Virus record (IMG/VR): IMGVR_UViG_3300025781_000063
Location: 1 to 25,904 of that record
DNA from: a virus
Reading direction: 5' to 3' (one strand)
Length of the DNA: 25,904 nucleotides
The notes below the pieces were generated by a model. That model was not told the DNA's origin. It made no database searches and saw only the letters and a program-made list of their open reading frames with translations. A program made the translations under genes and the position numbers. Below, piece by piece: positions 566-18,266 of this stretch (position 1 is the first letter of the stretch; each line of letters opens with the position of its first letter).

Positions 566-2292
566 GCGAGAATCCCGCAGCAGTAGGATTTAAGGAGGGA
601 TTGTTCCGTCGCCATGTTGGAAGCGCGTCTGATTGGCTAGAGCAGCATTTCAAGATTCCTCACTCGGCAAGAAGCACCAAGTTTGACCGCAACAATGCGC
701 CCCACCTGACCGACATCATAGAGGCCTGCTGTGATCTCCATCATCAGAAAGTGGTGGTGAGGGCTTGCACGGGGGCCGGAAAGACAACGGTCATGGAGGC
801 GGTCAGTCACTTTGCAATCGGCGTGGAGCCGGGTCCGATGCTGATCGCCGGAAGCACCGACAAGGACATCAAGGATTGGGCTGAGTCTCGATTGATCCCT
901 GAACTAAAAGAATGTGGCCCAATTGCCGCGATCATGGACGGAATGGACCGTCACGATAAGCGAAAGACCGAAATGCTTTTCCCTCACATGAGCATGTTCC
1001 TCACCGGAGCGAACATCTCCGGCCTTCAAGCCAAGTCCATGCGCTACTGCTACGGCGACGAAACATGGCTATGGGACAAGGGCATGGTCGGGGAAATGAA
1101 GGCACGGCATCATGACCGATGGAACCGCAAGACGATCCTTGTGACGCAGGGGTGGGAGACAGACAAGGAGCTGCCGCACGACATGGACAAAGAGTACGAC
1201 GACGGGGATGACCGGAGGAGGGGATTCGATTGCCCGTCATGTGGTCGGTGGCAAGTCTACAAGTGGGAGCAGATCAAGTGGGATGAGCAGAAGATTCCCG
1301 ACACCGAGACTCTGGACATGGAGGCGACCAAGCAGACGGTTCGCTATGAATGCGAGTTTGAGGACTGCGCGGCTATACATGTAGATACATCGGAAAACCG
1401 CAGGAAGCTGGCAATGGCCGGAAGTTATAGACCATTCAATCCACACCCCATGAGCAGGGTTACGAGCTTCACTTGTCCGGCCTGGGCGGTCTGGTGGATT
1501 CCTTGGGGTGATCTGGTGATGGAGTGGATTGATGCCCATGCGGCAAAGCATAAAGGGGATATTGAGCCACTGAAGAAGTTCACCATGAAACGGGCCGCAA
1601 GGGTGTGGGAGGTGACCCATACCAGGGTGACAGATGCTGACGTGACATCGATGCGGTCTGATGAGTTTGTGATGAAGGAATGCCCGATTGATCCGGCACT
1701 TGTGACGCTATGCGCGGACGTTGGAGAGAAGCGGACCCACTGGAGTGTCCAGGCATGGGCAAAGGAGGGGACTAGCTATGTGATTGACCACGGGACGGTG
1801 CTGGGTCCGGAGGATCTACTGATGCTCATCCCGACTCTCAATTACCCGATCAAAGGAACCGACCGCTTCGCGCAAGTCCAGCAGGGGCTGATCGACTCTG
1901 GTGACTTTACTGAGTTGGTCTACAACGTCTGCCTGAGATCCAATGGGACGCTATACCCAAGCAAGGGATCGGGGGCGCAGATTGGAACCTATCGGGAAAG
2001 CCGGTTGGACAACTACGGAGGCCTGCCGCTTTACCTCTACTCTGATTACCAAGCCAAATGCGCATTGTATGAGGGCAAGATCGCCAAGAAAGATGCGCCT
2101 CGCCTGTTCTTTGCTTCTGATGTTGCCGAGGAATTTCTGATCGGTCACATGGGGCAAAGGAAGATTGATTCGCAGGACAAGAAAACCAAATCATGGAAAT
2201 CGGTGGCACAGGATCACTATGGGGATTGCACCAAGCTCCACCTTGTGACCTGGTGGATATTGCGTCGGTATATTGAAGGTGCTGGGATTTGA
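562..2292 (+). CDS. terminase large subunit, GpA family
   Basis: A 576-residue ATP-driven DNA packaging motor with a headful/cos-cutting nuclease domain, acting at the procapsid portal. N-terminal ATPase: Walker A at residues about 67-76 (RACTGAGKTT) and Walker B at 162-167 (YCYGDE, with the catalytic Glu). A zinc-ribbon-like insert has CPSC at 224-227 and CEFEDC at 264-269, typical of GpA-type terminases. The C-terminal nuclease domain shows acidic residues in LCADVG (D386) and LIDSGDF (D445), then the PSKGSG motif near 467. Length is close to lambda gpA (about 640) and slightly shorter. It overlaps the small-subunit gene by 4 nt and starts the packaging/head operon. GpA-type enzymes usually cut at cos-like sites, which is inference here because no cos site was identified. 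Confidence 0.95.
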   Translation: MSENPAAVGFKEGLFRRHVGSASDWLEQHFKIPHSARSTKFDRNNAPHLTDIIEACCDLHHQKVVVRACTGAGKTTVMEAVSHFAIGVEPGPMLIAGSTDKDIKDWAESRLIPELKECGPIAAIMDGMDRHDKRKTEMLFPHMSMFLTGANISGLQAKSMRYCYGDETWLWDKGMVGEMKARHHDRWNRKTILVTQGWETDKELPHDMDKEYDDGDDRRRGFDCPSCGRWQVYKWEQIKWDEQKIPDTETLDMEATKQTVRYECEFEDCAAIHVDTSENRRKLAMAGSYRPFNPHPMSRVTSFTCPAWAVWWIPWGDLVMEWIDAHAAKHKGDIEPLKKFTMKRAARVWEVTHTRVTDADVTSMRSDEFVMKECPIDPALVTLCADVGEKRTHWSVQAWAKEGTSYVIDHGTVLGPEDLLMLIPTLNYPIKGTDRFAQVQQGLIDSGDFTELVYNVCLRSNGTLYPSKGSGAQIGTYRESRLDNYGGLPLYLYSDYQAKCALYEGKIAKKDAPRLFFASDVAEEFLIGHMGQRKIDSQDKKTKSWKSVAQDHYGDCTKLHLVTWWILRRYIEGAGI

Positions 2293-2308
2293 CTTTTAAG
2301 AATACGTC

Positions 2309-2623
2309 ATGGCATCGCCTACTCCAGATCATCACAAAATATCCGGCATTAAGGCCTACTTGCGCTATAAGAGCCTTGCAGAACTGCAAGCCTTAGCGGA
2401 CGCCATTTTTTCTGCGGCTACTGAGGAAGTGACCATTACTGGCAGCAGCGCCGATGGTGGGTCTGCCAATGGCGAGGTGACATTCCCCAAGTGGCTCTAC
2501 CTTGATGCGGTCATGGCAGTCCGCGCCGAGAAGGGAGACCTCCCGACCAATGCCGACGGTACGATTGTCAGCCGCCAGCTTGGAACCCGTCCCGACTACA
2601 GCAGGACTTGGGCGGTCACCTAG
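2309..2623 (+). CDS. gpW-like head-tail joining protein candidate
   Basis: A 104-residue small protein between the terminase and portal genes, the slot occupied by gpW in lambda-type phages. It shows a helix (about 12-36, KAYLRYKSLAELQALADAIF), a beta-prone Thr/Ser/Gly stretch (37-62) and a second helix with LYLDAVMAVRAEKG (about 66-80). This is compatible with the small alpha+beta gpW fold, but the sequence is not diagnostic. In lambda, gpW binds beneath the portal and stabilises packaged DNA before the tail docks. No Shine-Dalgarno is visible. TTGAC sits 15 nt before the ATG, a context shared by several genes in this genome. Confidence 0.6.
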   Translation: MASPTPDHHKISGIKAYLRYKSLAELQALADAIFSAATEEVTITGSSADGGSANGEVTFPKWLYLDAVMAVRAEKGDLPTNADGTIVSRQLGTRPDYSRTWAVT

Positions 2624-2641
2624 TTTGATTTTTATGAAAAC

Positions 2642-2735
2642 CCGCTAAAACCACCGCTGGGATCCGAGGACTGTTGCGCTAGGGCAGGAAACCGGAGGTG
2701 CAAGGATCGAGTAGGTAATCCCAGCGGAATAGCGG
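2642..2735 (+). ncRNA. candidate structured RNA between gpW-like gene and portal
   Basis: The 153-nt gap before the portal gene contains nested complementarity. An outer 6-bp stem pairs 2642-2647 with 2730-2735 (CCGCTA/TAGCGG). A perfect 10-bp stem pairs 2654-2663 (CCGCTGGGAT) with 2718-2727 (ATCCCAGCGG). An inner 6-bp stem with one G:U pairs 2674-2679 (TTGCGC) with 2698-2703 (GTGCAA). There is no U-tract and no good ORF. The element is bracketed by copies of AGTTTGATTTT at 2622-2632 and 2737-2747. I do not recognise it as a known riboswitch or ribozyme. It could be a portal-level translation control element, a processing site or a packaging-related structure. Confidence 0.5.
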
Positions 2736-2776
2736 CCAGTTTGATTTTATTTGATTTTTGACAGAGGCGGTTTGCT

Positions 2777-4273
2777 ATGAGCGAACCGAAATCAAAGCGC
2801 GGTGGGGCAAGGGCAGGGGCCGGACGCCCCAAGAAAACCGATCTGGCGGCATACGAGGCAAGCTATCGGTACAACCCACAACGGATGTGGGTTTATTCCC
2901 CAACGCTTGACGCAAAGAAGGAACTCACGGGCGGTTCGCGTCAGGAACTCATTAAGAAAGCGCAGTGGTTATACAACAACAGCGGCCTTGCCGGAGGCGC
3001 GGTTGATAAGATTGCACGCCTTGTCGGTCCTCTCCAACCGCAGGCGCGGACGATGGATGAGAATTGGAACCGCATGGCAGAGAAAGCATTCAACGATGCC
3101 TGCCGCAATGCCGCCTTTGGCGTGGATGTTTCCGGCATGGTCAACTTTGACCAAGCAGTCCCGCTCCTAGTTCGCCAGATGGCGATTGCCGGAGATGTGT
3201 TTTGGCAGCGCATGACCAGCAAGTCTGGCCGCGCCATGTTCCGACTTATCCCTGGAGAGAACGTCGGATCACCAGTTGGCAATGAGGAGGAAGGATGGAA
3301 CGACGGTGTGAAGGTTGATTCCAAGACGGGACGCCCGATCCGTTTCCGTGTTTTGAAGTCTCCAGCATCTCAGGAATACACCGATATTTCTGCCGATGAC
3401 ATTGCCCAGGTGCGCCGCGCCTATCGCATCGGCTACACCCGCGCACCATCATGGTTGGCTAGGGCTGCCAATACGCTTCAAGACATTGCCGAGTATCTGG
3501 CCTTTGAAAAGCAGTCGGCAAAAATCGGTGCATCAATGGCGGTAGTTTTGACCTCTCCAGAGGCCGGACAAATAGGGCTTGGGTCATCGTTGGTAAAAGG
3601 CAACAGCAGCTCAAGCCAACAACCAATGACCGTGGATGCGTTGACCAATGGATCAATTATTCCGCAACTGAAGCCCGGAGAGCGTTTGGAGAGCTTGGCC
3701 AATCAACATCCCGCCGGAAACATGAAGGAGTTCCTTGGGACTCTGAAGGAGGAGATTGCGGTTGGCCTTGGATTCTCTAGCCAATTCCTTTTTGACTCCA
3801 CCGAGGCCGGAGGGGCCAACCAGCGGTGGATTCTTGAAGAGGCGGCATCGGCGATTGATGAGATACGAGACATCATCGTTCAGAACTTTGCAGCACCATT
3901 CTGGAGGTTTTGGATCTGGCAGGAAATCCAAGCAGGCCGCCTGCCAATGCCAAATGACGGATCTGATTGGTGGCGCATGGAGACCGTTGGTCCCGCTAGG
4001 TTGTCGGTGGATTTTGGCAGAGATGGTCGCCTCATGAGCGATCTCCTGCTCCGTGGACAGATCTCCCCGCAACGCTACTACGCTTTGCAGGGTCTGGACG
4101 CTGATACCCAAGATGCAGATATTATTAGGTTCGCAGCGCGGAGAAAAAAGTTGGTTCAAGAAATCGCCAAGGAAGAGGGGGTTGATTTGTCAGTGTTAGA
4201 AGTTTTCCCTCCAGCACCAGGTTCACCAGTAGTTGCCGCGCAAGGTGATTTGACACCCGCCGAAAACCCGTAA
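2777..4273 (+). CDS. portal protein, lambda gpB-type
   Basis: A 498-residue protein forming the dodecameric ring at the unique capsid vertex through which DNA enters and leaves. The N-terminus carries a Gly/Arg/Lys-rich segment (KRGGARAGAGRPKK, about 7-20), possibly nucleic-acid binding. The body has features of lambda-family portals: LYNNSGLAGGAVDKIARLVG near 65-84, the QMAIAGDVFWQRM block near 134-146, RLIPGENV near 157-164, and the GLGFSSQFLFDS segment near 331-342. The C-terminal tail is Pro/Ala-rich. Length is close to lambda gpB (533). A GAGG 9 nt before the ATG could act as a weak Shine-Dalgarno, and TTGACA lies at 2758-2763. The stop overlaps the next start (TAATG). Confidence 0.93.
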   Translation: MSEPKSKRGGARAGAGRPKKTDLAAYEASYRYNPQRMWVYSPTLDAKKELTGGSRQELIKKAQWLYNNSGLAGGAVDKIARLVGPLQPQARTMDENWNRMAEKAFNDACRNAAFGVDVSGMVNFDQAVPLLVRQMAIAGDVFWQRMTSKSGRAMFRLIPGENVGSPVGNEEEGWNDGVKVDSKTGRPIRFRVLKSPASQEYTDISADDIAQVRRAYRIGYTRAPSWLARAANTLQDIAEYLAFEKQSAKIGASMAVVLTSPEAGQIGLGSSLVKGNSSSSQQPMTVDALTNGSIIPQLKPGERLESLANQHPAGNMKEFLGTLKEEIAVGLGFSSQFLFDSTEAGGANQRWILEEAASAIDEIRDIIVQNFAAPFWRFWIWQEIQAGRLPMPNDGSDWWRMETVGPARLSVDFGRDGRLMSDLLLRGQISPQRYYALQGLDADTQDADIIRFAARRKKLVQEIAKEEGVDLSVLEVFPPAPGSPVVAAQGDLTPAENP

Positions 4274-5382
4274 TGTCTATGCTTTCGCTTTTCGCCGCAG
4301 CTACCGATGGTCGCGTTGATGCCGAAAATGGCGTCTTGCGCGGAGTCCGTGTGATCAGCAAGGGAGAAGCAAAGGGGCATAGCTACCTTGGTGAACCCAT
4401 CATTATTGATGACATCACTTTGGATGAGGTTGTTGAGGCATCCGCTTCTTTCCCCGATGGCGTCCCAGTCAAGTTGGCGCATGGCACTGACATCGAGGAG
4501 CTAGTGGGAGCAATCAAGGGCTTCGTGCGCGATGTGGATTGCGTCCGTGGCGATCTCTACCTCCTCAAGAGCCATGAAAACTACGCCACCATCATTGAGA
4601 TGGCGCAAACCATGCCTTCCAATTTCGGTGTTTCCATTTCCTTCATGAACGCTCCGGAACCCATCAAGGGAATGGACATGGAGCCGGATGGCGATGAGGA
4701 CGATGAGGACGGCACTTTGGCTCAACTAGTAGGCGATGACATCGTGGCCTATGCCGCCCGAGTTTGTGAGCTTTACTCCGCTGATCTGGTTCAGGCCCCC
4801 GCTTGCAACCCTTCACTTTTTTCCAATCCCATGAGCGATACATCCGCCACACCTGAAGTCCTCCCCGAGGCTCCCGTCGAGGAAGTCAAGGTGGAGGAGA
4901 CCGCCCCTACCGAGGTTCCTGCCGAGGAGGTTGTTGAAGCACCCGTTGAAGTTCCCGCCGAGGAGGTCAAGTCCGAGGAAGTGAAGCCAGAGGAACCCGC
5001 CGTTGAAGCTGAAGAGGTTCCTGCTCCGGCAGAACTCTCCCGCGTCATGGATGCCGTCAAAACCGATTTTGAGGCGACCAAGACCGAGCTTTCCCGTGTG
5101 ACCACGGAACTTGCCGCAGTCCGCTCCGAACTGACCGCCGCCCAGGAGAACCTTGCCATCAAGGACGCTCAACTCGTTGAGCTTAATATGCTCCACCGCA
5201 GCGTCCTTTCCGTCATGGGCCTCGGCGCTTCCATTGAGATCCCTGAAATTTCTGAAGAGGCTCCAGAGCAGTCTTTGATTGAACGCTACGAATCCATGCC
5301 TGCCGGCCCCCAGCGTCTTGAATTTTTCCAAACCCACCGACGTGCGCTTGAAAAAGCCATTGCGGCACGTCTTGGAAACTAA
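4273..5382 (+). CDS. prohead protease fused to scaffold
   Basis: A 369-residue head-maturation polyprotein. Residues about 12-125 look like a phage prohead serine protease of the HK97 gp4/Mu-like class: KLAHGTDIEELVG contains the candidate catalytic His70, and NFGVSISF contains the candidate catalytic Ser121 (or Ser123). Residues about 190-255 are Glu/Pro/Val repeats (EVPAEEV, VEVPAEEVK and similar), disordered and acidic. Residues about 255-310 form a coiled coil (TELSRVTTELAAVRSELTAA), followed by a short basic C-terminal helix (THRRALEKAIAARL) of the type scaffolds use to bind coat protein. It directly precedes the coat gene, as expected for scaffold-protease fusions. The N-terminal family assignment rests on motif pattern only. 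Confidence 0.85.
   Translation: MSMLSLFAAATDGRVDAENGVLRGVRVISKGEAKGHSYLGEPIIIDDITLDEVVEASASFPDGVPVKLAHGTDIEELVGAIKGFVRDVDCVRGDLYLLKSHENYATIIEMAQTMPSNFGVSISFMNAPEPIKGMDMEPDGDEDDEDGTLAQLVGDDIVAYAARVCELYSADLVQAPACNPSLFSNPMSDTSATPEVLPEAPVEEVKVEETAPTEVPAEEVVEAPVEVPAEEVKSEEVKPEEPAVEAEEVPAPAELSRVMDAVKTDFEATKTELSRVTTELAAVRSELTAAQENLAIKDAQLVELNMLHRSVLSVMGLGASIEIPEISEEAPEQSLIERYESMPAGPQRLEFFQTHRRALEKAIAARLGN
4831..5382 (+). CDS. possible nested scaffold from internal ATG
   Basis: An in-frame ATG at residue 187 of the protease-scaffold gene (NPMSDT) falls exactly at the boundary between the protease domain and the acidic/coiled-coil scaffold. Starting here would give a free 183-residue scaffold in excess over protease, the arrangement known from lambda C/Nu3. 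There is no clear Shine-Dalgarno upstream (ACTTTTTTCCAATCCC), so independent initiation is inferred only from the domain boundary. Confidence 0.35.
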   Translation: MSDTSATPEVLPEAPVEEVKVEETAPTEVPAEEVVEAPVEVPAEEVKSEEVKPEEPAVEAEEVPAPAELSRVMDAVKTDFEATKTELSRVTTELAAVRSELTAAQENLAIKDAQLVELNMLHRSVLSVMGLGASIEIPEISEEAPEQSLIERYESMPAGPQRLEFFQTHRRALEKAIAARLGN

Positions 5383-5411
5383 CCCAACCCTAACCCAACA
5401 CACACACCACT

Positions 5412-6314
5412 ATGGCTAATACATTTAGCTCCTCACTGGTGACGGATACGGCCACTAAGGCTGCTATTACCGTCCTCCAGAGCAAGTTGGCCCCGATCAA
5501 GAATTTCTCCACTGATTTCTCTTCGGATGTCGTCAACCCCCTACGCAAGCTCCAGGTTGGAGTTGCCACTTCGGCTGCTGCCGCTGTGACTTCCCCGACC
5601 AGCTTTGAGTCACAGGGAACCACCCTGACCAACACCGCTGTCACCATGACGCACTACTCGGCCCAGTTCGGTCTGAGCAGCGCACAGCTTAACCAAGGTT
5701 TCACCCTTGAGCGCATCATGGCTGTCAACCTTCGTTCCCTCGCCAACGCCCTTGTTGATGCGGCCCTTAGCCCCATCAACACCACGACCTATGGCGCGGC
5801 TGCTTATAGCTCCGCGATCACCACGGCCACCGGCGGCGTTCTCGGTAACGACCTCATCACCAAGGGGCTTCCCGCTCTCTGGTCGGCACTCAAGGACGGC
5901 ACTAGCCGCAACCTTGTTCTGGATGGCAGCTACTACAGCTACCTCCTGCCTCAGAGTGGCTTCAGCCTCAAGCCCGGTGATGGAGCTTACGGATTTGATT
6001 CCGTGAACTTCAACAACCGTTGGAACGGTGTCACCGGCGGATCCGATGTCCAGCTGAACGGAACCACCAAGACCATCAAGGGCTTTGTGGCTTCGCCCGA
6101 GGCTCTGGCAGTCGCTTCTGCGCTTCCGTACATCGACCCTGCTGTTGCTGGTTTGCTCCAGATGAGCGAGACCATTGAGATCCCCGATCTCGGTCTGGCC
6201 GTTCAGTTCAACGTGCACGGTTCCTTGGCCAGCCGCAGCCTTCAGGCGTCCTTTGACGTTGTGTTCGGAGCCGCTGCCGCTGACGGCTCGGCACTCAAGA
6301 TCATCAACGCCTAA
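5412..6314 (+). CDS. major capsid protein
   Basis: A 300-residue coat subunit. It follows the scaffold gene directly and has capsid-like composition: small, Ala/Ser/Thr/Asn-rich, no Cys, few charges, with long beta-prone segments. Blocks such as TMTHYSAQFGLSSAQLNQGF (about 78-97), the spine-helix-like RIMAVNLRSLANALVDAAL (about 101-119) and KTIKGFVASPEALAVASALP (about 220-239) are typical of HK97-fold coat proteins, where a long helix is followed by a late C-terminal domain. The 29-nt leader after the scaffold stop is almost purely C/A with runs of CCCAA, unstructured and without a Shine-Dalgarno sequence, which is notable for what should be the most strongly translated gene. A hairpin terminator-like element follows. 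Confidence 0.9.
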   Translation: MANTFSSSLVTDTATKAAITVLQSKLAPIKNFSTDFSSDVVNPLRKLQVGVATSAAAAVTSPTSFESQGTTLTNTAVTMTHYSAQFGLSSAQLNQGFTLERIMAVNLRSLANALVDAALSPINTTTYGAAAYSSAITTATGGVLGNDLITKGLPALWSALKDGTSRNLVLDGSYYSYLLPQSGFSLKPGDGAYGFDSVNFNNRWNGVTGGSDVQLNGTTKTIKGFVASPEALAVASALPYIDPAVAGLLQMSETIEIPDLGLAVQFNVHGSLASRSLQASFDVVFGAAAADGSALKIINA

Positions 6315-6335
6315 TCCTTCTAGGATTTCATCGCA

Positions 6336-6363
6336 AAGGGTCACCCCGCAAGGGGTGGCCCTT
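6336..6363 (+). terminator. terminator-like hairpin after the capsid gene
   Basis: A 12-bp stem (AAGGGTCACCCC with GGGGTGGCCCTT, one G:U) is closed by a GCAA tetraloop, 21 nt after the capsid stop. It is followed by CTTGCGTTT, only a weak U-tract, so it could be a partial terminator or an mRNA 3'-end stabiliser that raises capsid over downstream connector expression. Confidence 0.7.
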
Positions 6364-6389
6364 CTTGCGTTTGACTCGGTTTCTTCATC

Positions 6390-6716: not shown

Positions 6717-7120
6717 TGAATCCTCTTTCCGTAGAATCCGCGATCAAGACGGCTTTTGCCGCCTCGGCTTTCCCGACTACGACTATCTACACCGGGACTG
6801 ACTATGAGGAGATGACGCCCGAGTCATTGAATCTCATCGTCTCGGTCGCGCAGCTCGATCACGTCGTGGGTGACACCTACAAGGCGCAGACCACGATTCG
6901 CATCGTCTCTCCGGCCCTGCTCGGTGCTGATGCAAAAGCTGAGATGGTCACCACGATCAATAGCGTCAGGAGTGCGCTTGCCAATACCTACCTTGCCGCG
7001 AACTGGCCTAGCACCGGCGCTCCGACCTACGGAGGAGTTTGGGTGAGCGCAACAAAGATGAGCCAGGACAACCACGCATGGGTAGCCGAGGTGGATGCCG
7101 TCATCGGCGTCTCGGTTTGA
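6716..7120 (+). CDS. putative tail terminator / tail completion protein
   Basis: A 134-residue alpha/beta protein. It has an N-terminal helix (VESAIKTAFAASAF), strand blocks (LNLIVSVAQLDHVVG and KAQTTIRIVSPALLG), a helix (AEMVTTINSVRSALANTYL) and a C-terminal strand pair (AWVAEVDAVIGVSV). This order and size match lambda gpU-like or minor tail terminator proteins that cap the tail tube next to the head. The gene is directly coupled to the preceding connector gene and followed by tail-tube candidates. Fold class is inferred from the pattern, with no diagnostic motif. Confidence 0.6.
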   Translation: MNPLSVESAIKTAFAASAFPTTTIYTGTDYEEMTPESLNLIVSVAQLDHVVGDTYKAQTTIRIVSPALLGADAKAEMVTTINSVRSALANTYLAANWPSTGAPTYGGVWVSATKMSQDNHAWVAEVDAVIGVSV

Positions 7121-7135
7121 CATCCAGAAAAGCGT

Positions 7136-7231
7136 ATGGCCGACGAGATCAAACCCAACCCTCTCATCCTTGAAAAGGATGTTGCCGCTCCGGCTCCCGC
7201 CCCTGCTCCCGAACCCAAGCCCTCCAAGTAA
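7136..7231 (+). CDS. 31-residue Pro/Ala-rich ORF
   Basis: Starts MADEIKPNPLILEKDVAAP and ends in alternating Ala-Pro and Pro-Lys residues. It fills the gap between the tail terminator gene and the next tail gene with 1 nt to spare before the following ATG. A TTGAC element 14 nt before its ATG matches the start context of other genes here, which is the best argument that it is translated. No homologue is recognised. It could be a short linker peptide or leader used to couple translation into the tail genes. Confidence 0.5.
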   Translation: MADEIKPNPLILEKDVAAPAPAPAPEPKPSK

Positions 7232-7232
7232 T

Positions 7233-7547: not shown

Positions 7548-7568
7548 TCCCCTAACTGACCTACCGCC

Positions 7569-7898: not shown

Positions 7899-7922
7899 CG
7901 GGATACCAACTGACATTCTGAC

Positions 7923-8770: not shown

Positions 8771-8991
8771 AGCCTCCGTCTCTGGCCGCGCTGGTATTCA
8801 CGCTGGCCAAGGAGGGGGGCTTCACCGAAAGGGAGCTGATGGAGGAGATTCCCGTCTATCGGGTGAATGCCTACTACCATGCCGCTCTCCGCAGTCACGA
8901 TGTCTGGACGGTGAAAGAACAACCCCCCGTGGATGTGCAGATCGACGATCTGTTAGCCTTTGCGGCGGTTGACATGGCAGAGGAAGAGTGA
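8369..8991 (+). CDS. tail assembly chaperone, frameshifted (GT-like) form
   Basis: A -1 shift at 8758-8764 joins 132 zero-frame codons to 75 codons in the -1 frame (about 207 residues), ending in TGA at 8989-8991. The extension begins LLEPPSLAALVFTLAKEGGF and continues through RELMEEIPVYRVNAYYHAAL to FAAVDMAEEE. It has no start codon of its own at its 5' end and no Shine-Dalgarno, so frameshifting is the economical explanation. In lambda the analogous G and GT products must exist in a fixed ratio for tail assembly. The downstream gene starts with a GTGA overlap of this stop, implying that ribosomes do reach it. Confidence 0.75.
8758..8815 (+). promoter_or_regulatory. -1 ribosomal frameshift signal
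   Basis: Slippery heptamer C_CCA_AAC (8758-8764) is in zero-frame register, satisfying X_XXY_YYZ. After an 8-nt spacer comes a hairpin: CCTCC (8773-8777) with GGAGG (8811-8815), then TGGCCGCG (8783-8790) with CGC-T-GGCCA (8801-8809, one bulged T). An AAGGA at 8744-8748, 9 nt upstream of the heptamer, could act as an internal Shine-Dalgarno stimulator as in dnaX. All three stimulatory elements are at canonical spacing. Confidence 0.8.
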
Positions 8992-9638: not shown

Positions 9639-9655
9639 TTCTTTGACATTGGTGC

Positions 9656-11236
9656 ATGGGCAAGATGCCCAACGATGCATTAACGGCGAGCTTTGGTCTT
9701 GATATTGCACCTCTGACGCAATCGCTCAAGAGGGCAACATCTGCCGTCTCTGATGCGACCGCAAAAATGGGCAAGGGTTCATTTCGCGATTTAATTGCTC
9801 CGATTGCTGAGGTCGCCGCCGCTGTGGGATCGGTTGCCGCCATTATGGAGGGCATGAAGGGTGGCCTTGACCTAGGGAAGCAAATGCAACTAGCCCATGA
9901 GGAAACGGGCATTGCGGTTGGTCAACTTGTCATGCTCCGCAAGGCGGCAATGCAAGCTGGGATGGAGTTTGAGGAAATACCCAAAACCGTTTTCAAGATG
10001 CAAAACGCGATTGGCGAAGCACTTGGAGGAGGCGAAAAAGGTCGAGTTTTCAATCAATTAGGACTGGATCCCAAGATGCTGGCGACCATTGCTCCGGATG
10101 ACGCTTTGAGGAAAATAGGGGTGGCGGTGATGCACCTGGACAACCTCAACGACAGGGCGCGAGTTCTTAAAGAGATCTTCGGGCGCGGCGGATCTGAAAT
10201 GGCTCGTTTCTTCAATTCTCCAGAAATGAAGCAAGGCACAAAAATGACATCCTTGGCTAAAGTTTTGGATGAATATTCTGCCCTATTTAAAGAAATAGGG
10301 GAAAAAATGGAAAAGATCGGTCAGCACTTGAAGGAATTTTTCGTCGGTCTTGACAAAACGATCATGCCGTCAATCGGGAGAATGCTTGATAAGCTAGAAG
10401 GATTTGATTTTGAGAAATGGGGAGAGAACTTTGGAAACTCCATTGTTGGCATCATCGGAGACTTCAAGAACCGAATTATCGCCATCAAAGACGCATTAAA
10501 AGCAATCTTTCTTGGGGTAATTCCGCCATTTGCAAACGCCCTTTTTGTTATTTTCACGGAGGTTGCATCTTTCCTTGGAGAGAAAATCTCCAGTTCAGTA
10601 AAATATGCTTACGCTGGAACGCCAATCGGAACAGCAATCGGCTCACCATCTTATGATGCCGTTGCAAAAGAGAACATAGCAAAGAATCAAGAAAACCTTT
10701 TTAAGAATCTCTCCGACATGATGAAGGCGGGGACTATTTCCGAAAAGGATGCGGCCCTACAATGGAGAACCGCACTAATGCACAACAAAGGGGAGGATGT
10801 CAGGGGATACAGAGCCATCCAAGATACAACAACTTTTGAATCCCTTTCACAAAAAGCCTCAGAAGCAATTAAAAAAGGAGTTGATGATGCAAACCCTGCT
10901 TTTGTGGATTTTCAGAATGCGCTATCTCGCTTAATGGCTCCAATCCCAAAATTGCAGCAAGAAAACAATCTACAAGCCAAAGAAGCAAAAGAAGAAGCCG
11001 ATTCTTATATTCCGCATTCAGGAATCGCTGCAATAGGCGTTGCAAATCCAATTATGGGAATCATTGCCGACAGCCTTGCAAAAGTAGGAGGAGGAGGTTT
11101 TGCCGTTGGACCAGGGAGCAATCCGATCCTTGAGGAAAACAAACGCCAGACCTCGCTTCTTCAGTCCATCAATCAGGGGATCTTGAGAGCCGCTGCGGCC
11201 TCCGGCCCTCTTGAAGCTCAATTCAGCATCAATTGA
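9656..11236 (+). CDS. tail tape measure protein
   Basis: A 526-residue protein, mainly helical, starting MGKMPNDALTASFGLDIAPL. The alternative ATG at 9665 is also possible and puts TTGAC 17 nt upstream. The features are those of tape measure proteins: an N-terminal helical region with T-A-S-F-G-L-D, long amphipathic helices (TQSLKRATSAVSDATAKMG), a hydrophobic segment (LGVIPPFANALFVIFTEVAS, about 283-302) and a Gly/Ala-rich tail (KVGGGGFAVGPGSN). Tape length usually scales with tail length at about 1.5 angstroms per residue, which would imply a rather short tail of about 80 nm. That is an inference, not a measurement. The C-terminal third is markedly AT-richer than the N-terminal third. Confidence 0.88.
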   Translation: MGKMPNDALTASFGLDIAPLTQSLKRATSAVSDATAKMGKGSFRDLIAPIAEVAAAVGSVAAIMEGMKGGLDLGKQMQLAHEETGIAVGQLVMLRKAAMQAGMEFEEIPKTVFKMQNAIGEALGGGEKGRVFNQLGLDPKMLATIAPDDALRKIGVAVMHLDNLNDRARVLKEIFGRGGSEMARFFNSPEMKQGTKMTSLAKVLDEYSALFKEIGEKMEKIGQHLKEFFVGLDKTIMPSIGRMLDKLEGFDFEKWGENFGNSIVGIIGDFKNRIIAIKDALKAIFLGVIPPFANALFVIFTEVASFLGEKISSSVKYAYAGTPIGTAIGSPSYDAVAKENIAKNQENLFKNLSDMMKAGTISEKDAALQWRTALMHNKGEDVRGYRAIQDTTTFESLSQKASEAIKKGVDDANPAFVDFQNALSRLMAPIPKLQQENNLQAKEAKEEADSYIPHSGIAAIGVANPIMGIIADSLAKVGGGGFAVGPGSNPILEENKRQTSLLQSINQGILRAAAASGPLEAQFSIN

Positions 11237-11237
11237 T

Positions 11238-11918: not shown

Positions 11919-11923
11919 TAGCA

Positions 11924-12595: not shown

Positions 12596-12596
12596 G

Positions 12597-13346
12597 ATGG
12601 CCAAGGTATTTTCCATCACGCCGTTTAATTTCCCATGTTCGCTACTGCCATCTGACGGCAGCGTGGACACGACGTATTATCTCAAGCTCACCAAGGCCCA
12701 AGTCATTTGGCTGGCTTGGAAAGTAAAGGAATTTGCGGTGGATAATTTTTCGTATTCTGGGATGCCTGGGTTTCATGGGGTTGGGGTGGCAATCTATGGT
12801 CAATCTGGAAATTTTGATGGGTTCATGGTTTCCAATTCAGCGCAATTCACAATTGATCGAACTGGAGATAGCTACCCGTATCAGTCAGAGCGCGACATTG
12901 CCGCGAGAGGCGCCCAGATATGGGCTACAAATCCGTCCCAGAACGTCGGAACACCAACTGATAATATTTATGGATACCAACCCACGATCTCTTGTCAGGT
13001 CCAATCGACTTTCCGTGATGGTATTTGCTTTAGGGATCAAACCCATGATTGCTATTGGGTGCGACCTCCTTCGTTTAGGTTTTATTCATTTGAGGCAGTC
13101 GGGGAAGGGGATTTCATCACATGGGGAATTCATACTTCTGTTGATGCCAGCGAAATCAGTTCATCAATTCAAGTAGGGACATTGACGCTTTCTTTGACCG
13201 GTATTGATCCCATTTCCGTTCCATTAGTTCCCGATGCACTTGCACCAGGGTCTACTGGAATCGATTACTCAACAGCATCGGTGTCCACAATATCCATGAG
13301 CGATTCCGACACCTATCCCTATTCTGGTGACATGAACGATTTTTAG
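12597..13346 (+). CDS. tail tip protein candidate C, unknown
   Basis: A 249-residue protein starting MAKVFSITPFNFPCSLLPSD, 1 nt after the upstream stop. It is aromatic- and Ser/Gly/Thr-rich with few charges and a beta-sandwich-like composition. Notable blocks include WLAWKVKEFAVDNFSYSGMP, DRTGDSYPYQSERDIAARG and IQVGTLTLSLTGIDPISVPL. The last looks like an extended strand pair. No signal peptide is visible, so it is likely a virion structural protein such as a tail-tip or receptor-binding component. Its family is not recognised. Confidence 0.6.
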   Translation: MAKVFSITPFNFPCSLLPSDGSVDTTYYLKLTKAQVIWLAWKVKEFAVDNFSYSGMPGFHGVGVAIYGQSGNFDGFMVSNSAQFTIDRTGDSYPYQSERDIAARGAQIWATNPSQNVGTPTDNIYGYQPTISCQVQSTFRDGICFRDQTHDCYWVRPPSFRFYSFEAVGEGDFITWGIHTSVDASEISSSIQVGTLTLSLTGIDPISVPLVPDALAPGSTGIDYSTASVSTISMSDSDTYPYSGDMNDF

Positions 13347-13353
13347 CCCTTTG

Positions 13354-13371
13354 ACACCGCACTAGCGGTGT
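13354..13371 (+). promoter_or_regulatory. hairpin abutting a start codon
   Basis: A perfect 7-bp inverted repeat (ACACCGC and GCGGTGT, 4-nt ACTA loop) ends directly before the ATG of the next gene. No Shine-Dalgarno is present, and TTGAC (13351-13355) begins the element. It may limit or time translation of the fibre genes. Confidence 0.5.
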
Positions 13372-13731
13372 ATGCCAGCGACGTTTGACCTTACAGGCGA
13401 GAGACGCATTTTCTGCGGCGCTGATTACACCTATGGGGTGACGCTCAAGGATGGTTCAAATGCTGCTATCAACCTGACAAATTGCACTTTGGCCAGCCAG
13501 ATCCGCCGGACTCAATCTTCCTCCGATGTCCTGGCATCTTTTTCAGTGACGATCACCAATGCAGCCCAGGGCACGGCCACCTTGGCTCTCTCTGCTACCA
13601 CCACGGGCACACTTCCGGCCACGCCTGCCGATAGCTACTGGAAGCATGACGTTTTGTTAACCCGCGCTGATGGGACAAAGATCCGCATCCTTGAAGGGGA
13701 TGTTGAGGTTGATGCCGCTGTGACCCGCTGA
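13372..13731 (+). CDS. small tail fibre-associated beta protein
   Basis: A 119-residue beta-rich protein. It begins with a DLTGERRIFCGADYTYGVTL block and has Ig/jelly-roll-like periodic strands (CTLASQIRRTQSSSDVLASF, ATLALSATTTGTLPATPADS) and a C-terminal strand with acidic residues (RILEGDVEVDAAVTR). Small proteins of this kind precede fibre genes in many phages (for example N-terminal modules of baseplate upper proteins), usually acting as an adaptor or fibre attachment module. The gene is preceded by the hairpin at 13354-13371 and followed after 2 nt by the collagen-like fibre gene. Confidence 0.6.
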   Translation: MPATFDLTGERRIFCGADYTYGVTLKDGSNAAINLTNCTLASQIRRTQSSSDVLASFSVTITNAAQGTATLALSATTTGTLPATPADSYWKHDVLLTRADGTKIRILEGDVEVDAAVTR

Positions 13732-13733
13732 TT

Positions 13734-14384
13734 ATGGGCACGGACATTGAGGTTGTCGTTGATCCGGCGGCTATATCCACTGCCGTTACGGTTGATCCTG
13801 CCTCGGTGGTGACATTCGTGACATTGTCCGTGGGAGTTCCTGGGCCAGCAGGCCCAATAGGACCCGTTGGCCCAGCAGGCCCAGCGGGATCGTATGATCA
13901 ATCGCTTAATACCACCAATAGCCCTCGCTTCAATGATTTGGAAATTGACCAGCTTGGAGGAGGATCATTAGCGGGAGTGATTCAAAATCTCGGGAACAGC
14001 ATTCCGACCGACCTTGGTCAGCTATCCAATCGGCCGGGATACATAACAGGACTCCCGCAACCCCTAGATAGCGGAGCATGGCCCAATTTTAACGGGGTCA
14101 CATGGGCAAGTGGGTATAAAACTGCAAATTCTGCCTTGTATCAAGATGGTTCGATTCGTGTTGGGTGGAATGGATCAAGTTACAATAATCAATTAAACCC
14201 AGACGGTTCCGGAAGTTTTGCTGCCGGAGCTTTAACTATTGATTCTAGCGGCAATTTAACCGCCACAAATTTCACGCCATCGGCATATTTGACCGACGCC
14301 ACAGCATTTGATGCCGCAGGATCTGCAAATTCTGCCCTCTCTACCGCCACGACGCGCGCCATCGCTTTTGCCATTGCTCTCTAA
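13734..14384 (+). CDS. tail fibre protein with collagen-like stretch
   Basis: A 216-residue protein. Residues about 34-52 are a collagen-like Gly-X-Y run (GVPGPAGPIGPVGPAGPAG), which would form a short trimeric shaft. Before it is a beta-rich attachment region (EVVVDPAAISTAVTVDP) and after it a Gly/Asn/Ser-rich distal part. The last stretch (SAYLTDATAFDAAGSANSAL) resembles a repeated fibre coda found before chaperone or adhesin segments. Trimeric fibres with this design bind host surface glycans. It is 2 nt downstream of the adaptor gene and 3 nt upstream of the larger fibre gene. The length is short, so it may be a proximal fibre segment. Confidence 0.75.
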   Translation: MGTDIEVVVDPAAISTAVTVDPASVVTFVTLSVGVPGPAGPIGPVGPAGPAGSYDQSLNTTNSPRFNDLEIDQLGGGSLAGVIQNLGNSIPTDLGQLSNRPGYITGLPQPLDSGAWPNFNGVTWASGYKTANSALYQDGSIRVGWNGSSYNNQLNPDGSGSFAAGALTIDSSGNLTATNFTPSAYLTDATAFDAAGSANSALSTATTRAIAFAIAL

Positions 14385-14387
14385 ATC

Positions 14388-16037
14388 ATGAAACAACTCG
14401 CCAGCAATTATTCCATCAGCGGATCAGACGTGACGCTCACGGGCGTTAATGTTCCGCTATCCCAAATCCTGCTCGTTTCCGATGCAACCACGGGAAATGT
14501 GCTTTACAGCATGGCAGGGCCAGCTTCCGCAAGTTACACGCAAGCGGCGAACAGCGTCATCACGCTGGCGATCGCTCCCGGATCAACCGACAAACTGACG
14601 ATCTATTATGACGACGGGGTTGCTCCGGCTAATGCCCCCACCAGCGTTTCGGTTTCCAACCTTCCCAGCACTCAGCCCGTTTCTGCAACATCGCTTCCGC
14701 TTCCTTCCGGGGCCGCTACCTCGGCACTCCAGACCACTGGAAATAGTTCCCTTTCCTCTATTGACGGCAAAACTCCGGTATTGAATGCCGATGGCGGATC
14801 GCCGGTCCATGTGCAGAATTTCCCGTCCACCCAGCCGATTTCCGCCGCAGCGTTGCCTCTACCCAGCGGCGCGGCGCAGGATGGAACCGACGGCACGGGC
14901 ATCACAGTTCCGACGGGAGGCTCCGGCATCCGAGGATGGTTGTCTGGCATTTACAGCAAGCTCTCCGCCGCGTTGGCGGTCACGCAGTCTGGAACGTGGA
15001 GCGTGGGCAGAACGTGGAACCTTGCCAGCGGAACGGATGCCGTTTCCGTGCAGGGAGGAAACTCAACCGCCGTTAAGGTGGATGGGTCGGCGGTCACCCA
15101 GCCCGTATCCTTGGCATCAGTTCCGTCGCACCCGGTCACCAACGCCGGAACATTCGCCGTTCAGCCGAGTGCTGGCGACCTTACCAGCGGATCGCAGACG
15201 ACCAAGATCGTCAACGGAACGAACACGCTGGCAGTCGATTCTTCGGGCGCGATCACAGCGAATAATGCGGCGAACCAAACCTATACTTACACCACGACAT
15301 CCAGCGTCACGAATGGAACCGTGGTCATAGGGCCGCTAAATTGTTCTTCGTATCGAACACTAATTTTGCAAATTACCTCGTACTCTTCTGGTTCTTACAA
15401 CGTCCAGATTTCCAATGATAATTCCACTTGGACTCAAATCGCAGGTCAGCAAACCACCCAATACGGATCCGGAATGTATTGGTCCACGGCCGGGTATGGT
15501 GCAGGAACTTCGTTCTTTTATCCTACTTATGGGGCCAACTACATCAAGGTTGTTGTCAATACCACGTTAAGCGGATCAACAAATGCGTTGTGTTGCGCTC
15601 TTTCCCAACAGCCGTTGACAATTACTTCAGTTTCTCCATTTAACGGGCCAAATGCCCTATCGGTTGCGGCAGTCCCGACCGCCAGCGTCATCAACGGCTT
15701 CTCCTCTTACCATTCCCTTGTCTGCGCGGCTACAACCAACGCCACTCTGGTTAAAAACTCACAAGGTCAGATCGGCTCCCTGATCCTGACCAACAACTCG
15801 GCAAGCTGGGCTTACTTCAAACTCTGCAACACTTCGACCGCGCCGACCCCCGGAACGACCACGGCGGTCATCAATATCGGGGTGGCTCCGAACAGCACGT
15901 TGGACTGCTCGACTTCTTTTGCTGGTCTCCGTCTCTCGACGGGCATTTCCTACTACGTCTCGGCGGGAACGTCGCTTACCGACAACACGTCTCTTCCTGC
16001 GGCGGGAACCTTTCTTGTCAACATGACCTACGCCTAA
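14388..16037 (+). CDS. large tail fibre / receptor-binding protein
   Basis: A 549-residue Ser/Thr/Ala/Gly-rich, beta-structured protein with almost no charge. Internal repeats are visible: NLPSTQPVSATSLPLPSGAA (about 92-111) and NFPSTQPISAAALPLPSGAA (about 144-163), with intervening SALQTTGNSSLSSIDG. A middle section carries periodic TQPVSLASV and TNAGTFAVQPS elements. The distal part (PFNGPNALSVAAVPTASVI onwards, about 420 to the end) is Ser/Thr-rich with three Cys. Such modular repeats typify fibre shafts with a distal host-binding head. The stop overlaps the next start (TAATG). Confidence 0.8.
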   Translation: MKQLASNYSISGSDVTLTGVNVPLSQILLVSDATTGNVLYSMAGPASASYTQAANSVITLAIAPGSTDKLTIYYDDGVAPANAPTSVSVSNLPSTQPVSATSLPLPSGAATSALQTTGNSSLSSIDGKTPVLNADGGSPVHVQNFPSTQPISAAALPLPSGAAQDGTDGTGITVPTGGSGIRGWLSGIYSKLSAALAVTQSGTWSVGRTWNLASGTDAVSVQGGNSTAVKVDGSAVTQPVSLASVPSHPVTNAGTFAVQPSAGDLTSGSQTTKIVNGTNTLAVDSSGAITANNAANQTYTYTTTSSVTNGTVVIGPLNCSSYRTLILQITSYSSGSYNVQISNDNSTWTQIAGQQTTQYGSGMYWSTAGYGAGTSFFYPTYGANYIKVVVNTTLSGSTNALCCALSQQPLTITSVSPFNGPNALSVAAVPTASVINGFSSYHSLVCAATTNATLVKNSQGQIGSLILTNNSASWAYFKLCNTSTAPTPGTTTAVINIGVAPNSTLDCSTSFAGLRLSTGISYYVSAGTSLTDNTSLPAAGTFLVNMTYA

Positions 16038-16240
16038 TGAAAACGATCACAATCAAACTTTCTGGCGACGAGTTCTGGGATCGTATCGCTGGCCTCGTCA
16101 ATGGCGAGTCCGGCCAGGTCACGGGATCGCCATTCACTGACGGGAAGCAATTCTATAACGCCGTTTTTCCCAACTACGGCGAGGTCACATGGATTCCCGA
16201 ATCCGTCGCAACCGTCACGGAAATGACTGACCCATCATGA
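16037..16240 (+). CDS. small unknown protein after the fibre gene
   Basis: A 67-residue protein whose ATG overlaps the fibre stop (TAATG) and whose TGA overlaps the next start (ATGA). N-terminal MKTITIKLSGDEFWDRIAGL is followed by an aromatic, Gly-rich middle (TGSPFTDGKQFYNAVFPNYG) and an acidic end. It has no transmembrane segment. Position and coupling suggest a fibre assembly chaperone or minor fibre component, which remains a guess. Confidence 0.55.
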   Translation: MKTITIKLSGDEFWDRIAGLVNGESGQVTGSPFTDGKQFYNAVFPNYGEVTWIPESVATVTEMTDPS

Positions 16241-16485
16241 GCGACGATCAGATCAACGTCCTCCGATCCGATATTGCCGCTTTGAAAGCGGTCATGGATG
16301 AGCGTACCCGCGCCGCCGACCGCAACTCGACCCTGCTCCGCACGGTGACGGCGGTGGTGCTTCTTCAGTTCATCGGAACGGTCTATCTGGCCGGGATCAA
16401 GACCCAGAAACTGGATTCCCTGGCTGAGGAAGTCATGCAGATCCGCAACCGGATCGACAACTTGACACCCGTTCATAGGGCATGA
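16237..16485 (+). CDS. coiled-coil single-pass membrane protein (lysis cassette)
   Basis: An 82-residue protein: an amphipathic N-terminal helix (INVLRSDIAALKAVMDERTR), one transmembrane helix (about 36-53, TVTAVVLLQFIGTVYLAG), then a C-terminal heptad-like coiled coil (KLDSLAEEVMQIRNRIDNL). This build recalls XhlA-type and spanin-linked small membrane proteins in phage lysis cassettes. It is coupled on both sides (ATGA overlaps). Context with the lipoprotein, holin and lysozyme downstream supports a lysis role, but the assignment is from topology only. The TTGAC that precedes the next gene lies inside its 3' end. Confidence 0.6.
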   Translation: MSDDQINVLRSDIAALKAVMDERTRAADRNSTLLRTVTAVVLLQFIGTVYLAGIKTQKLDSLAEEVMQIRNRIDNLTPVHRA

Positions 16486-16688
16486 GGGAATCCACCAAAG
16501 AAAACATCACGATTGTTTTCCTTCTCATCGCGGCGTTTTTGATGCTGGCTTTGATTTGTTTTTCGGCCACCGGCTGCGCCCATCAGCCCGCCGTATCTCC
16601 TGATTCTTACTTTGAACGGGCCTCGGTTATTTCCGACCGGATTGAGGACAAGGCCGTGATTGTCCAGGAATGGCTGAAAAGCCACTGA
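16482..16688 (+). CDS. small lipoprotein, outer-membrane spanin candidate
   Basis: A 68-residue protein starting MRESTKENITIVFLLIAAFL with a hydrophobic signal sequence ending in a lipobox-like SATGC (lipid-modified Cys32 expected). The mature part is only about 37 residues, with an acidic/amphipathic tail (VISDRIEDKAVIVQEWLKSH). Rz1-like o-spanins are exactly such short lipoproteins. They pair with an inner-membrane coiled-coil protein, here most simply a neighbour in the same cassette. The lipobox is imperfect at -3 (Ala rather than Leu). TTGAC lies 15 nt upstream of the ATG. Confidence 0.6.
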   Translation: MRESTKENITIVFLLIAAFLMLALICFSATGCAHQPAVSPDSYFERASVISDRIEDKAVIVQEWLKSH

Positions 16689-16692
16689 TGCC

Positions 16693-17118
16693 ATGAAAAG
16701 CCAATTCCTTAGACACGTTCTGCCGCTCATGTTCATTTTTTGCGGTTTTGTAGACATATCCGCCGCCGATCTTTCCAACGTCAGCAAAGCCGACATTTTG
16801 GCCACGGTCCGGCATATGCAAGCCCTAGCCGCCGAGCAAAAGGTGGCCTTAGCCAAGGCGGACGCTGATTTCCAGAAACAGGCCCTTGACCTTTCCAAAG
16901 CAGAGTCCGAGGCCAAGCTGATGGCCTCCGCCGCCCATAAAAATGCCAAAGAACGTGATGTGGTTGTTTGGGCCTTTGCCATCTGCTTTGCCGCTTTCTT
17001 TGTCCGCACTTTTCCGACCGTGGGATGGATTGTCGTGGCTGAGACATCGATTGCCCTTGCCGTCGGCTATGCCATGGGACGATTCGCCTTGGCATGGGTT
17101 GCCAATCTGATCCCGTGA
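16693..17118 (+). CDS. lysis-cassette membrane protein with coiled coil
   Basis: A 141-residue protein with an N-terminal signal sequence (MKSQFLRHVLPLMFIFCGFV, likely cut near DISA-AD), an Ala/Lys/Glu-rich helical coiled-coil stretch (about 28-82, with ALAKADADFQKQALDLSKAE) and two closely spaced C-terminal transmembrane helices (about 88-107 and 110-136). The start is 4 nt after the preceding stop. A periplasmic coiled coil anchored in the inner membrane is what an i-spanin partner would need, although canonical i-spanins have an N-terminal anchor, so this would be an inverted design. The TGA overlaps the holin GTG. Confidence 0.6.
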   Translation: MKSQFLRHVLPLMFIFCGFVDISAADLSNVSKADILATVRHMQALAAEQKVALAKADADFQKQALDLSKAESEAKLMASAAHKNAKERDVVVWAFAICFAAFFVRTFPTVGWIVVAETSIALAVGYAMGRFALAWVANLIP

Positions 17119-17360
17119 GCGATTGGCTCAAGCGCCTCTTTTCTGAGGCAAACGGCACACCATCCAGCACCCGAGTCCTGTTGGGTATTTCGGTTTTCGC
17201 GGTGATCGCGGCGATTACCTATGTGCTGGTCAATCACTATCTGAAACGGGAAATGACTGATCTGCCACCCAATGTCAGCAACCTCCTGACTTGGCTTGTC
17301 TCGGTCCTGTCCGGGGCAAAGGCTGCTTCCAAATTTGGTGAACTTCCCCCATCGGCATGA
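17115..17360 (+). CDS. holin candidate
   Basis: An 81-residue protein initiated at GTG (overlap GTGA with the upstream stop; a longer upstream ATG at 17094 is less likely because it would run through the neighbour). The N-terminal amphipathic SDWLKRLFSEANGTPSSTR is followed by one clear transmembrane helix (VLLGISVFAVIAAITYVLV) and a weaker C-terminal hydrophobic helix (NLLTWLVSVLSGAKAAS). The shape is that of a small class II-type holin with a short loop, immediately upstream of the muramidase gene. Holins form the membrane lesions that let endolysin out at the programmed time. No biochemical motif exists to prove this. Confidence 0.7.
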   Translation: MSDWLKRLFSEANGTPSSTRVLLGISVFAVIAAITYVLVNHYLKREMTDLPPNVSNLLTWLVSVLSGAKAASKFGELPPSA

Positions 17361-17917
17361 AAAAAACCGATATCACGCTTGCCGCGCTGACCGGCGGCTA
17401 TCCCGCTGGCTTTAGGATAGCCCTGAAACTGGTTTTGGATTGGGAATGTGAACTCAACCATGTGACCGGCGACATTGAATGGGAGAACGTCCCTGACGAC
17501 TCAGGGGGTCCGACTTTTGCAGGACTGCTGCTCAAAACGGGAGAAGTAACCCGAGATGCCACGCCGCATGATATTTGTCAGGTCTACTTTTTAAATTACT
17601 GGCAGAAACTGGCAGGCCTTCCGGTGCTGGTGCAGGAAATGGCTTTTTTCATGGGTGTCAACATTGGCATCGGAGCGGCAGTTCGATTCCTCCAATTCGC
17701 CCTTATCAATTACGGAGCAAGGCTCAACGTGGACGGCATTTTGGGAGATAAAACGTGCCAAGCTGCGTATGCCGTGTCCGATACCGACGGGCTTTGTATG
17801 CTCTTCCTCGGTAAGCTCAAGCGCCATTACGAGGAACTGGCCCAGCGCCCAGGACAAGCCAAGTTTTTGGCCGGTTGGCTGAATCGGGTGGAAGCCGCCA
17901 AGGGGCTGATGAATTGA
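17357..17917 (+). CDS. endolysin: GH108 muramidase with PG_binding_3
   Basis: A 186-residue lysozyme. Residues about 17-80 match the glycoside hydrolase 108 domain: ALKLVLDWECELNH carries the candidate catalytic Glu30, and VPDDSGGPTFAGL matches the DPGG-type motif (here DSGG). The C-terminal part (about 90-180, from VNIGIGAAVRFLQFALINYG to KFLAGWLNRVEAA) matches PG_binding_3, which includes the VDGILGDKT segment. Normal family size. It cleaves the glycan chain of peptidoglycan after the holin opens the membrane. It has no signal peptide, consistent with holin-dependent release. The start overlaps the holin stop (ATGA). Confidence 0.88.
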   Translation: MKKTDITLAALTGGYPAGFRIALKLVLDWECELNHVTGDIEWENVPDDSGGPTFAGLLLKTGEVTRDATPHDICQVYFLNYWQKLAGLPVLVQEMAFFMGVNIGIGAAVRFLQFALINYGARLNVDGILGDKTCQAAYAVSDTDGLCMLFLGKLKRHYEELAQRPGQAKFLAGWLNRVEAAKGLMN

Positions 17918-17933
17918 CAAGCGTTTGCATTCA

Positions 17934-18266
17934 ATGAACCCGTTCACGCCCGAGGAGGACGCTGAAGAAATTTGGGGCGAGGCATATCTTCAAGGGCGCA
18001 CCAAGTACGAGGCAGGAAGCAAAGAGCATAAGACCGCTTTTTGGTCTGCTGGAGCATCCTGGTATGCCGAGGAATTGCGCGGAGAGGCGATTGATTCAAT
18101 TGCTTACCTTTACCACCTACGCACCCGCCTTGAGTCCATCCGGTCCCTAGCCAGAATGATGCGTGAAGATGAGGATATGACCCTTTCAATGGCCGCGACC
18201 ATTTTGGAACACCTCGCAGGAAATCACCCCCCTAAAACGCTTCCCAAACCTCACAACCACGATTGA
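17934..18266 (+). CDS. unknown soluble protein after the lysozyme
   Basis: A 110-residue protein, start ATG 17934 (a TTG start 9 nt upstream would add MHS). TTGACA sits 15 nt before the ATG. The N-terminal part (PEEDAEEIWGEAYLQGRTKY) is acidic and helical, the centre is WSAGASWYAEELRGEAIDSI, and the C-terminus is a helical pair ending in a His/Pro-rich tail (PPKTLPKPHNHD). No signal, membrane segment or known motif is visible. It is separated from the upstream stop by 16 nt and from the next GTG by only 1 nt. Confidence 0.55.
   Translation: MNPFTPEEDAEEIWGEAYLQGRTKYEAGSKEHKTAFWSAGASWYAEELRGEAIDSIAYLYHLRTRLESIRSLARMMREDEDMTLSMAATILEHLAGNHPPKTLPKPHNHD

Follow-up and report, generated by a model that had tools for sequence, protein, structure and literature searches.

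The pentamer TTGAC lies 14 to 18 nt upstream of many start codons in a linear 25.9-kb virus record (IMG/VR IMGVR_UViG_3300025781_000063, positions 1 to 25,904; these 25,904 nt are called the window below) and in its relatives. Judging from sequence comparisons, we give about even odds (a probability near 0.5) to the reading that one lineage of Verrucomicrobiales siphophages uses UUGAC (with A as the next base in about 75% of copies) as an mRNA element to control translation initiation of selected virion genes. The start-linked element is specific to this one phage lineage, and it is neither a Shine-Dalgarno (SD) sequence, nor a sigma70 promoter, nor an Rfam family (no Rfam covariance model matched in the window). 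The window represents a temperate siphophage with recognisable TerS, TerL, portal, tape measure, endolysin, integrase, RusA, Erf and replication initiator gene products. A Verrucomicrobiota host is suggested by the relatives of its TerL, of which 15 were found among viral contigs (28–95% identity); the nearest named phage by TerL is Akkermansia phage Moulinsart, at 25% identity.

The original prediction listed nine copies at a nearly fixed distance from start codons, and all nine positions and gaps (the number of nucleotides between the C and the start codon) are correct. On the + strand, TTGAC at 2289..2293 (gap 15), the TGA of which is the terL stop, precedes ATG 2309 of a 104-amino-acid (aa) gene between terL and portal, the gpW position. 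The portal ATG 2777 follows TTGAC at 2758..2762 (gap 14), and ATG 4273 of a 369-aa gene between portal and the putative capsid gene follows 4250..4254 (gap 18). Next come 6371..6375 (gap 14 to GTG 6390, a 108-aa gene after the capsid gene), 7117..7121 (gap 14 to ATG 7136, a 31-aa open reading frame, ORF) and 9643..9647 (gap 17 to ATG 9665, tape measure). The remaining listed copies are those at 13351..13355 (gap 16 to ATG 13372, a 119-aa gene, phrog_1084), 16462..16466 (gap 15 to ATG 16482, a 68-aa gene, the pentamer lying within the upstream gene) and 17914..17918 (gap 15 to ATG 17934, a 110-aa gene, the TGA being the endolysin gene stop). A tenth copy at 8969..8973, also on the + strand, had been overlooked; it stands at gap 14 from GTG 8988 of a 216-aa ORF. 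The 31-aa ORF (window 7136-7231, MADEIKPNPLILEKDVAAPAPAPAPEPKPSK) is conserved in six phages and is for that reason probably a real, unannotated small gene.

The proposed link between pentamer and start is real. TTGAC is found at gaps 14–18 before 10 of the 42 plausible starts in the window, against 0.30 expected from its + strand density there (binomial, 4e-13); at the same gaps the best pentamer not overlapping TTGAC precedes 3 starts, against 0.20 for the average pentamer. The total number of TTGAC in the window is near expectation (61 versus 55), and TTGAC-N14-18-RTG counted regardless of ORFs is near chance (12 versus 8.9), so that the signal consists in the association with real starts. 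All listed + strand copies head ORFs of at least 31 aa, and the − strand yields only three trivial ORFs (2, 3 and 15 aa). Start choice can itself create such patterns, which makes the relatives the real test.

In the relatives, genes were called mechanically, with any start up to 60 nt from the first permitted, a rule applied alike to every pentamer and gap. Seven contigs sufficed to put TTGAC at gap 14 ahead of every other combination (18 of 175 genes), and it is the strongest pentamer and gap combination across 220 related viral contigs with 1,456 non-redundant genes. In this larger set TTGAC occurs 97, 39, 27, 31 and 22 times at gaps 14, 15, 16, 17 and 18, respectively, not once at gap 13, and about 3.5 times per gap elsewhere. 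Because the contigs have common ancestry, genes were also clustered into families, and 45 of 637 clusters carry TTGAC at gaps 14–18, versus 12–16 at control gap windows. Conservation is nearly complete in some families: 24 of 25 members at the gpW position, 24 of 24 in the 108-aa family after the putative capsid gene, 8 of 8 in a 364-aa family and 11 of 12 in one portal cluster (423 aa). The counts are 22 of 44 in another portal cluster, 11 of 16 and 8 of 8 in the families related to the 369-aa gene at 4273, 13 of 22 in the tape-measure family and 4 of 5 in the 216-aa family (8988). The motif is carried by 60% of genes starting 15–25 nt past the upstream stop, versus 7–24% in other distance classes. 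A few contigs within the lineage have zero or one copy (records G324, G327 and G328 have at most one).

The sequence requirement is strict. Forms of TTGAC with one mismatch are at background (44 versus 42), as expected for specific recognition, and the reverse complement shows a flat profile without positional enrichment. When copies are aligned on the pentamer, 62% have T and 23% have G just before it, 75% have A just after it, and positions −60 to −2 relative to the pentamer are not conserved. Genes of the gap-14 class have GC before the start codon and GTG as 37% of their starts; starts at gaps 16–18 are nearly all ATG. The original prediction had allowed that coincidence with TGA stop codons may contribute. 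This is not sufficient: of 215 copies, 29 have a TGA that is the called stop of the gene before, which speaks for such an origin, and the other 186 lie away from a called stop, 138 of them intergenic and 48 inside the upstream gene. Given also the size of the peak and its cliff, the conservation of TTGAC in families and its absence from hosts and other phages of similar coding, an explanation by chance, codon bias or stop adjacency is refuted by the relatives and almost certainly wrong.

Prophages of the same lineage were located through a 16S signature and a genome search in Verrucomicrobiales. TerL matches were found in 49 of 289 genomes of a sample of the order Verrucomicrobiales; with a second profile, a sample covering the class more widely gave matches in 47 of 236 genomes. 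The same-lineage prophages (287 genes) show TTGAC 24, 12, 6 and 7 times at gaps 14–17, and chromosomal stretches of such genomes (445 genes) show it 2, 0, 0 and 0 times, without a peak. Unrelated prophages of the same order have it before 1 of 276 genes (0 of 139 in HK97-portal prophages and 1 of 137 in tail-sheath loci), and Moulinsart and Synechococcus phage S-CBS3 are without the start motif. The phage specificity that had been suggested is thus borne out, and an element used host-wide was rejected, the motif being absent from host chromosomes and other prophages. Some Verrucomicrobia have been listed as SD-scarce (PMC10783764), and no SD enrichment was found in the hosts studied here (28 versus 45 control sites, 434 genes). 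Upstream of host start codons, TTGNNA is enriched at 29–30 nt (25 of 716 genes versus about 9 expected), the pattern to be expected of leaderless sigma70 promoters; this host set comprises loci L171-L179, L192-L219 and Verrucomicrobiota 16S loci.

The spacing anchored to the start and the scarcity of SD sequences in the hosts would suit a signal intrinsic to the ribosome, that is, UUGAC pairing with host rRNA or fitting a host ribosomal protein as a second SD-like code. Such a code would, however, be unused by the hosts and their unrelated phages, and the one-mismatch forms are not enriched. Pairing with 16S rRNA was rejected, since in the Verrucomicrobia loci CCTCC is retained at the 16S 3′ end and GTCAA does not occur near it; the sole universal GUCAA lies about 350 nt from the 3′ end. 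A ribosome-intrinsic signal is thus very improbable. The element likewise differs from a classical SD sequence, with which it has in common that it is short and keeps a favoured distance from the start codon that follows: it lies at 14–18 nt (with none at 13) and not at about 5–9 nt, has no complement at the 16S 3′ end, tolerates no degenerate variants and is restricted to a phage lineage.

Whether the element acts in mRNA can be approached through folding. In motif genes, folding the 14-nt stretch that ends at the start codon together with nt 1–40 of the ORF gives a minimum free energy (MFE) of −11.46, versus −10.42 for permuted partners (sd 0.16); non-motif genes show no such excess over permuted partners. 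With one sequence per family the effect is only −0.41 kcal/mol (permutation sd 0.31), much weaker, so that part of the pooled excess reflects related sequences. Within two families the pairing holds among homologues: portal genes have a spacer-ORF MFE of −9.47 versus −6.75, and gpW-position genes −9.85 versus −8.06, each with 0 of 200 permutations reaching the observed value. In both families the spacer pairs with codons 2–4, placing the start codon within a predicted hairpin, and the arms covary, with double changes such as ttccgcccgtgc-GTG-gcggaa versus ttcggcccgtgc-GTG-gccgaa (L371, L354). Since the spacer pairs with coding sequence, it should be part of the mRNA in the portal and gpW-position families, which counts there against a leaderless promoter.

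On the + strand of the window, a 9-bp hairpin CGGUUUGCU-AUG-AGCGAACCG is predicted at 2768..2788, with the portal AUG as triloop (−12.8 kcal/mol, z −3.9). A second predicted hairpin, at 9649..9683, holds the tape-measure start codon in its stem (z −2.9; not family-wide), and a 7-bp inverted repeat, ACACCGC-ACTA-GCGGTGT, lies at 13354..13371 between pentamer and ATG (z −1.8); 7 of the 10 window elements fold no better than shuffles. Unlike in the portal and gpW-position families, the start-codon hairpin is not a family-wide feature in tape measure and others, and the one-per-family comparison led to its rejection as a universal feature. A general spacer hairpin shortening the effective distance was hinted at by a small prophage set and not upheld in a larger one, and a single hairpin register was rejected, the pairing being spread across registers. 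Separately, at several TerS-family starts with gaps 17–18 (e.g. L147, L153, L220, L235), the stretch from TTGAC to ATG contains CTCCGC...GCGGAG, a perfect inverted repeat.

The original prediction had ranked a sigma70 −35 box below an element of translation initiation or a site for a phage-specific regulator. The −35 box is excluded, as no TATAAT-like −10 element is found at the required distance of about 17 bp downstream (T makes up 1% at its first base in the gap-14 class), and a sigma70 −35 or Bacteroidetes-like promoter was rejected for want of any second element. The element resembles leaderless sigma70 promoters in having the −35 consensus, TTGACA, tied to start codons; however, leaderless sigma70 genes need TTGACA 29–31 nt upstream together with a −10, whereas here it lies at 14–18 nt and has no −10. 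With the −35 box and 16S pairing excluded, and the leaderless promoter and cutting at every copy (discussed below) disfavoured, we are left with an RNA element that something specific recognises. Of the preferred alternative, the phage specificity held; the mRNA role is supported in some gene families by the covarying start-codon hairpins, which are not general; action on ribosomes is what we infer.

In the preferred reading, the element would work as follows. The hosts make little use of SD sequences, and UUGAC, usually 14–18 nt from the start and never closer than 14, would sit at the 5′ edge of the footprint of the 30S initiation complex. A sequence-specific factor, encoded or recruited by the phage, would read UUGAC and assist loading of the 30S subunit at the start codon next to it. 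In portal, gpW-position and similar head genes, the start codon would be held in the hairpin of spacer and codons 2–4, so that initiation would need help or stay low. A stronger form, in which the lineage carries or recruits an initiation system of its own, with host ribosomes recognising UUGAC instead of an SD sequence and the head-gene hairpins opened only when that system is present, is a tentative possibility.

The cliff between gap 13 (0) and gap 14 (97) fits a partner beside the 30S subunit and not in its way, which is why we favour activation or positioning over repression. Recognition of RNA near start codons by phage proteins has precedents in T4 RegA, which acts on several genes, and in the R17/MS2 coat protein. 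A phage RNA-binding protein might similarly occupy UUGAC, in some genes together with the hairpin, and switch off virion genes of low-copy products at late times or in lysogens. Several motif genes do encode low-copy components (portal, tape measure, gpW position, TerS), and the putative capsid gene is not among them; the start-codon hairpins look like known operators, and the sequence requirement is strict. Nevertheless, a blocking site should act equally well or better nearer the start, yet gap 13 has none and shorter gaps are at background; the operators of RegA and R17/MS2 overlap the start or the SD sequence, whereas UUGAC keeps a 14-nt minimum gap; and no conserved candidate protein emerged from the record comparison described below. 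A repressor operator is therefore considered unlikely.

Recognition of a strict short sequence is also typical of MazF-type enzymes, and the strict pentamer without degenerate variants, in its start-linked position, could be a processing site at which a sequence-specific endonuclease cuts UUGAC and leaves short-leader mRNAs. Cutting of all copies would destroy the mRNAs of motif phages, in whose genes UUGAC is not specially avoided (observed/expected ratios inside genes of 0.91, 0.85 and 0.72 in motif phages, hosts and other prophages, respectively), and RNase cutting at every UUGAC was rejected on these grounds. As processing moreover gives no reason for the 14-nt minimum gap, it is improbable.

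Several observations weigh against control of translation initiation through UUGAC. The putative capsid family carries TTGAC in 0 of 24 members, although capsid would be expected to need most translation. With no GUCAA near the 16S 3′ end, a base-pairing ribosomal partner is not obvious. A comparison of 21 near-complete records by hidden Markov models found no non-structural gene in all motif-bearing phages, only TerL and portal being present in 17 of 17 motif-bearing records; a regular-expression scan of small ORFs for paired-CxxC zinc fingers or zinc knuckles gave no conserved candidate, a diverged or uncalled gene being still possible. The start-codon hairpin is family-specific rather than general, as the weak one-per-family pairing indicates. 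Two further features are not accounted for by this reading. Across the motif-bearing relatives, all gap classes show an excess of G 12 nt past the C (family-weighted 73, 52, 43, 71 and 51% for gaps 14–18), which is hence anchored to TTGAC and not to the start codon. Terminator-like hairpins precede 7.2% of motif genes versus 1.1% of others.

Both of these features, the latter 6.5 times more frequent before motif genes, would fit a phage-specific late promoter, with TTGACA-N11-G read by a phage-modified RNA polymerase to yield leaderless or nearly leaderless mRNAs. This would explain the cliff at gap 14 as a sharp lower bound. It would also agree with the 71% GC of the spacer in gap-14 genes (54% upstream of other genes), which is atypical for a normal leader, and with the host TTGNNA peak at 29–30 nt. 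Such a promoter is nonetheless unlikely: the covarying pairing between spacer and codons 2–4 needs the spacer within the mRNA, neither a −10 nor any other upstream box is present, in the gap-15 class most genes have a pyrimidine where a fixed +1 would fall, GC-rich DNA at the supposed start would be hard to melt, and no sigma factor or RNA polymerase was found among the searched window proteins.

If UUGAC acts in translation, it may be filed among the non-SD, start-linked elements of translational control, and by analogy it would work most like Com control in phage Mu. Com has been proposed to bind a hairpin beside a translation-inhibition structure and thereby expose the GUG start of mom (PMC6483171). 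Both cases concern phage late genes, with an RNA site shortly before the start, a start codon in a hairpin (the mom GUG lies in a stem) and a sequence-specific reading that is proposed to expose the start, and the logic proposed here would be that of Com opening the mom hairpin, extended to many virion genes. Com differs from the present case in serving a single gene and in having a SELEX motif (NGAGNNCC repeats) that sits in a short hairpin loop; UUGAC stands at 14–18 nt in about 45 gene families, mostly without a strong hairpin. A start-codon hairpin as in mom is predicted in the portal and gpW-position families and not in tape measure and others, and a Com-like protein was not found in the phages compared. 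The T7 gene 10 enhancer (PMC8748333) and epsilon-type enhancers are likewise upstream non-SD sequences proposed to stimulate initiation; the gene 10 enhancer serves a single gene and augments an SD sequence, whereas UUGAC is a strict pentamer across a virion gene set. No description of UUGAC start elements or of start motifs in Verrucomicrobia phages was found in open-licence papers. Short non-SD elements tied to starts are rarely so clear, and this one bears on how SD-poor bacteria choose their starts and whether phages bring their own rules. TTGAC may serve as a practical predictor of start sites in a large group of unannotated Verrucomicrobia phages and as a starting point toward a new RNA-binding factor.

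Some further features of the window and its relatives were noted. The putative major capsid gene (5412..6314, + strand; capsid assigned from gene order only) has no TTGAC and is preceded by a CA-rich leader, AACCCAACCCTAACCCAACACACACACCACT; this leader (AACCCAACCC...), at window 5382-5411, is present in most relatives shown. After the putative capsid gene, a terminator-like hairpin at window ~6325-6370 ends a few nucleotides before the next TTGAC, as it does in relatives L386, L399, L405 and L410. A ~180-aa early protein with a helix-turn-helix-like C-terminal stretch (G323:C1:2713-3228 and homologues) is found in 10 of 17 motif-bearing records. Finally, two adjacent small conserved ORFs, at window 19268-19444 (58 aa) and 19441-19689 (82 aa), each occur in seven of the compared phages, and the 82-aa ORF contains a HEALH motif.

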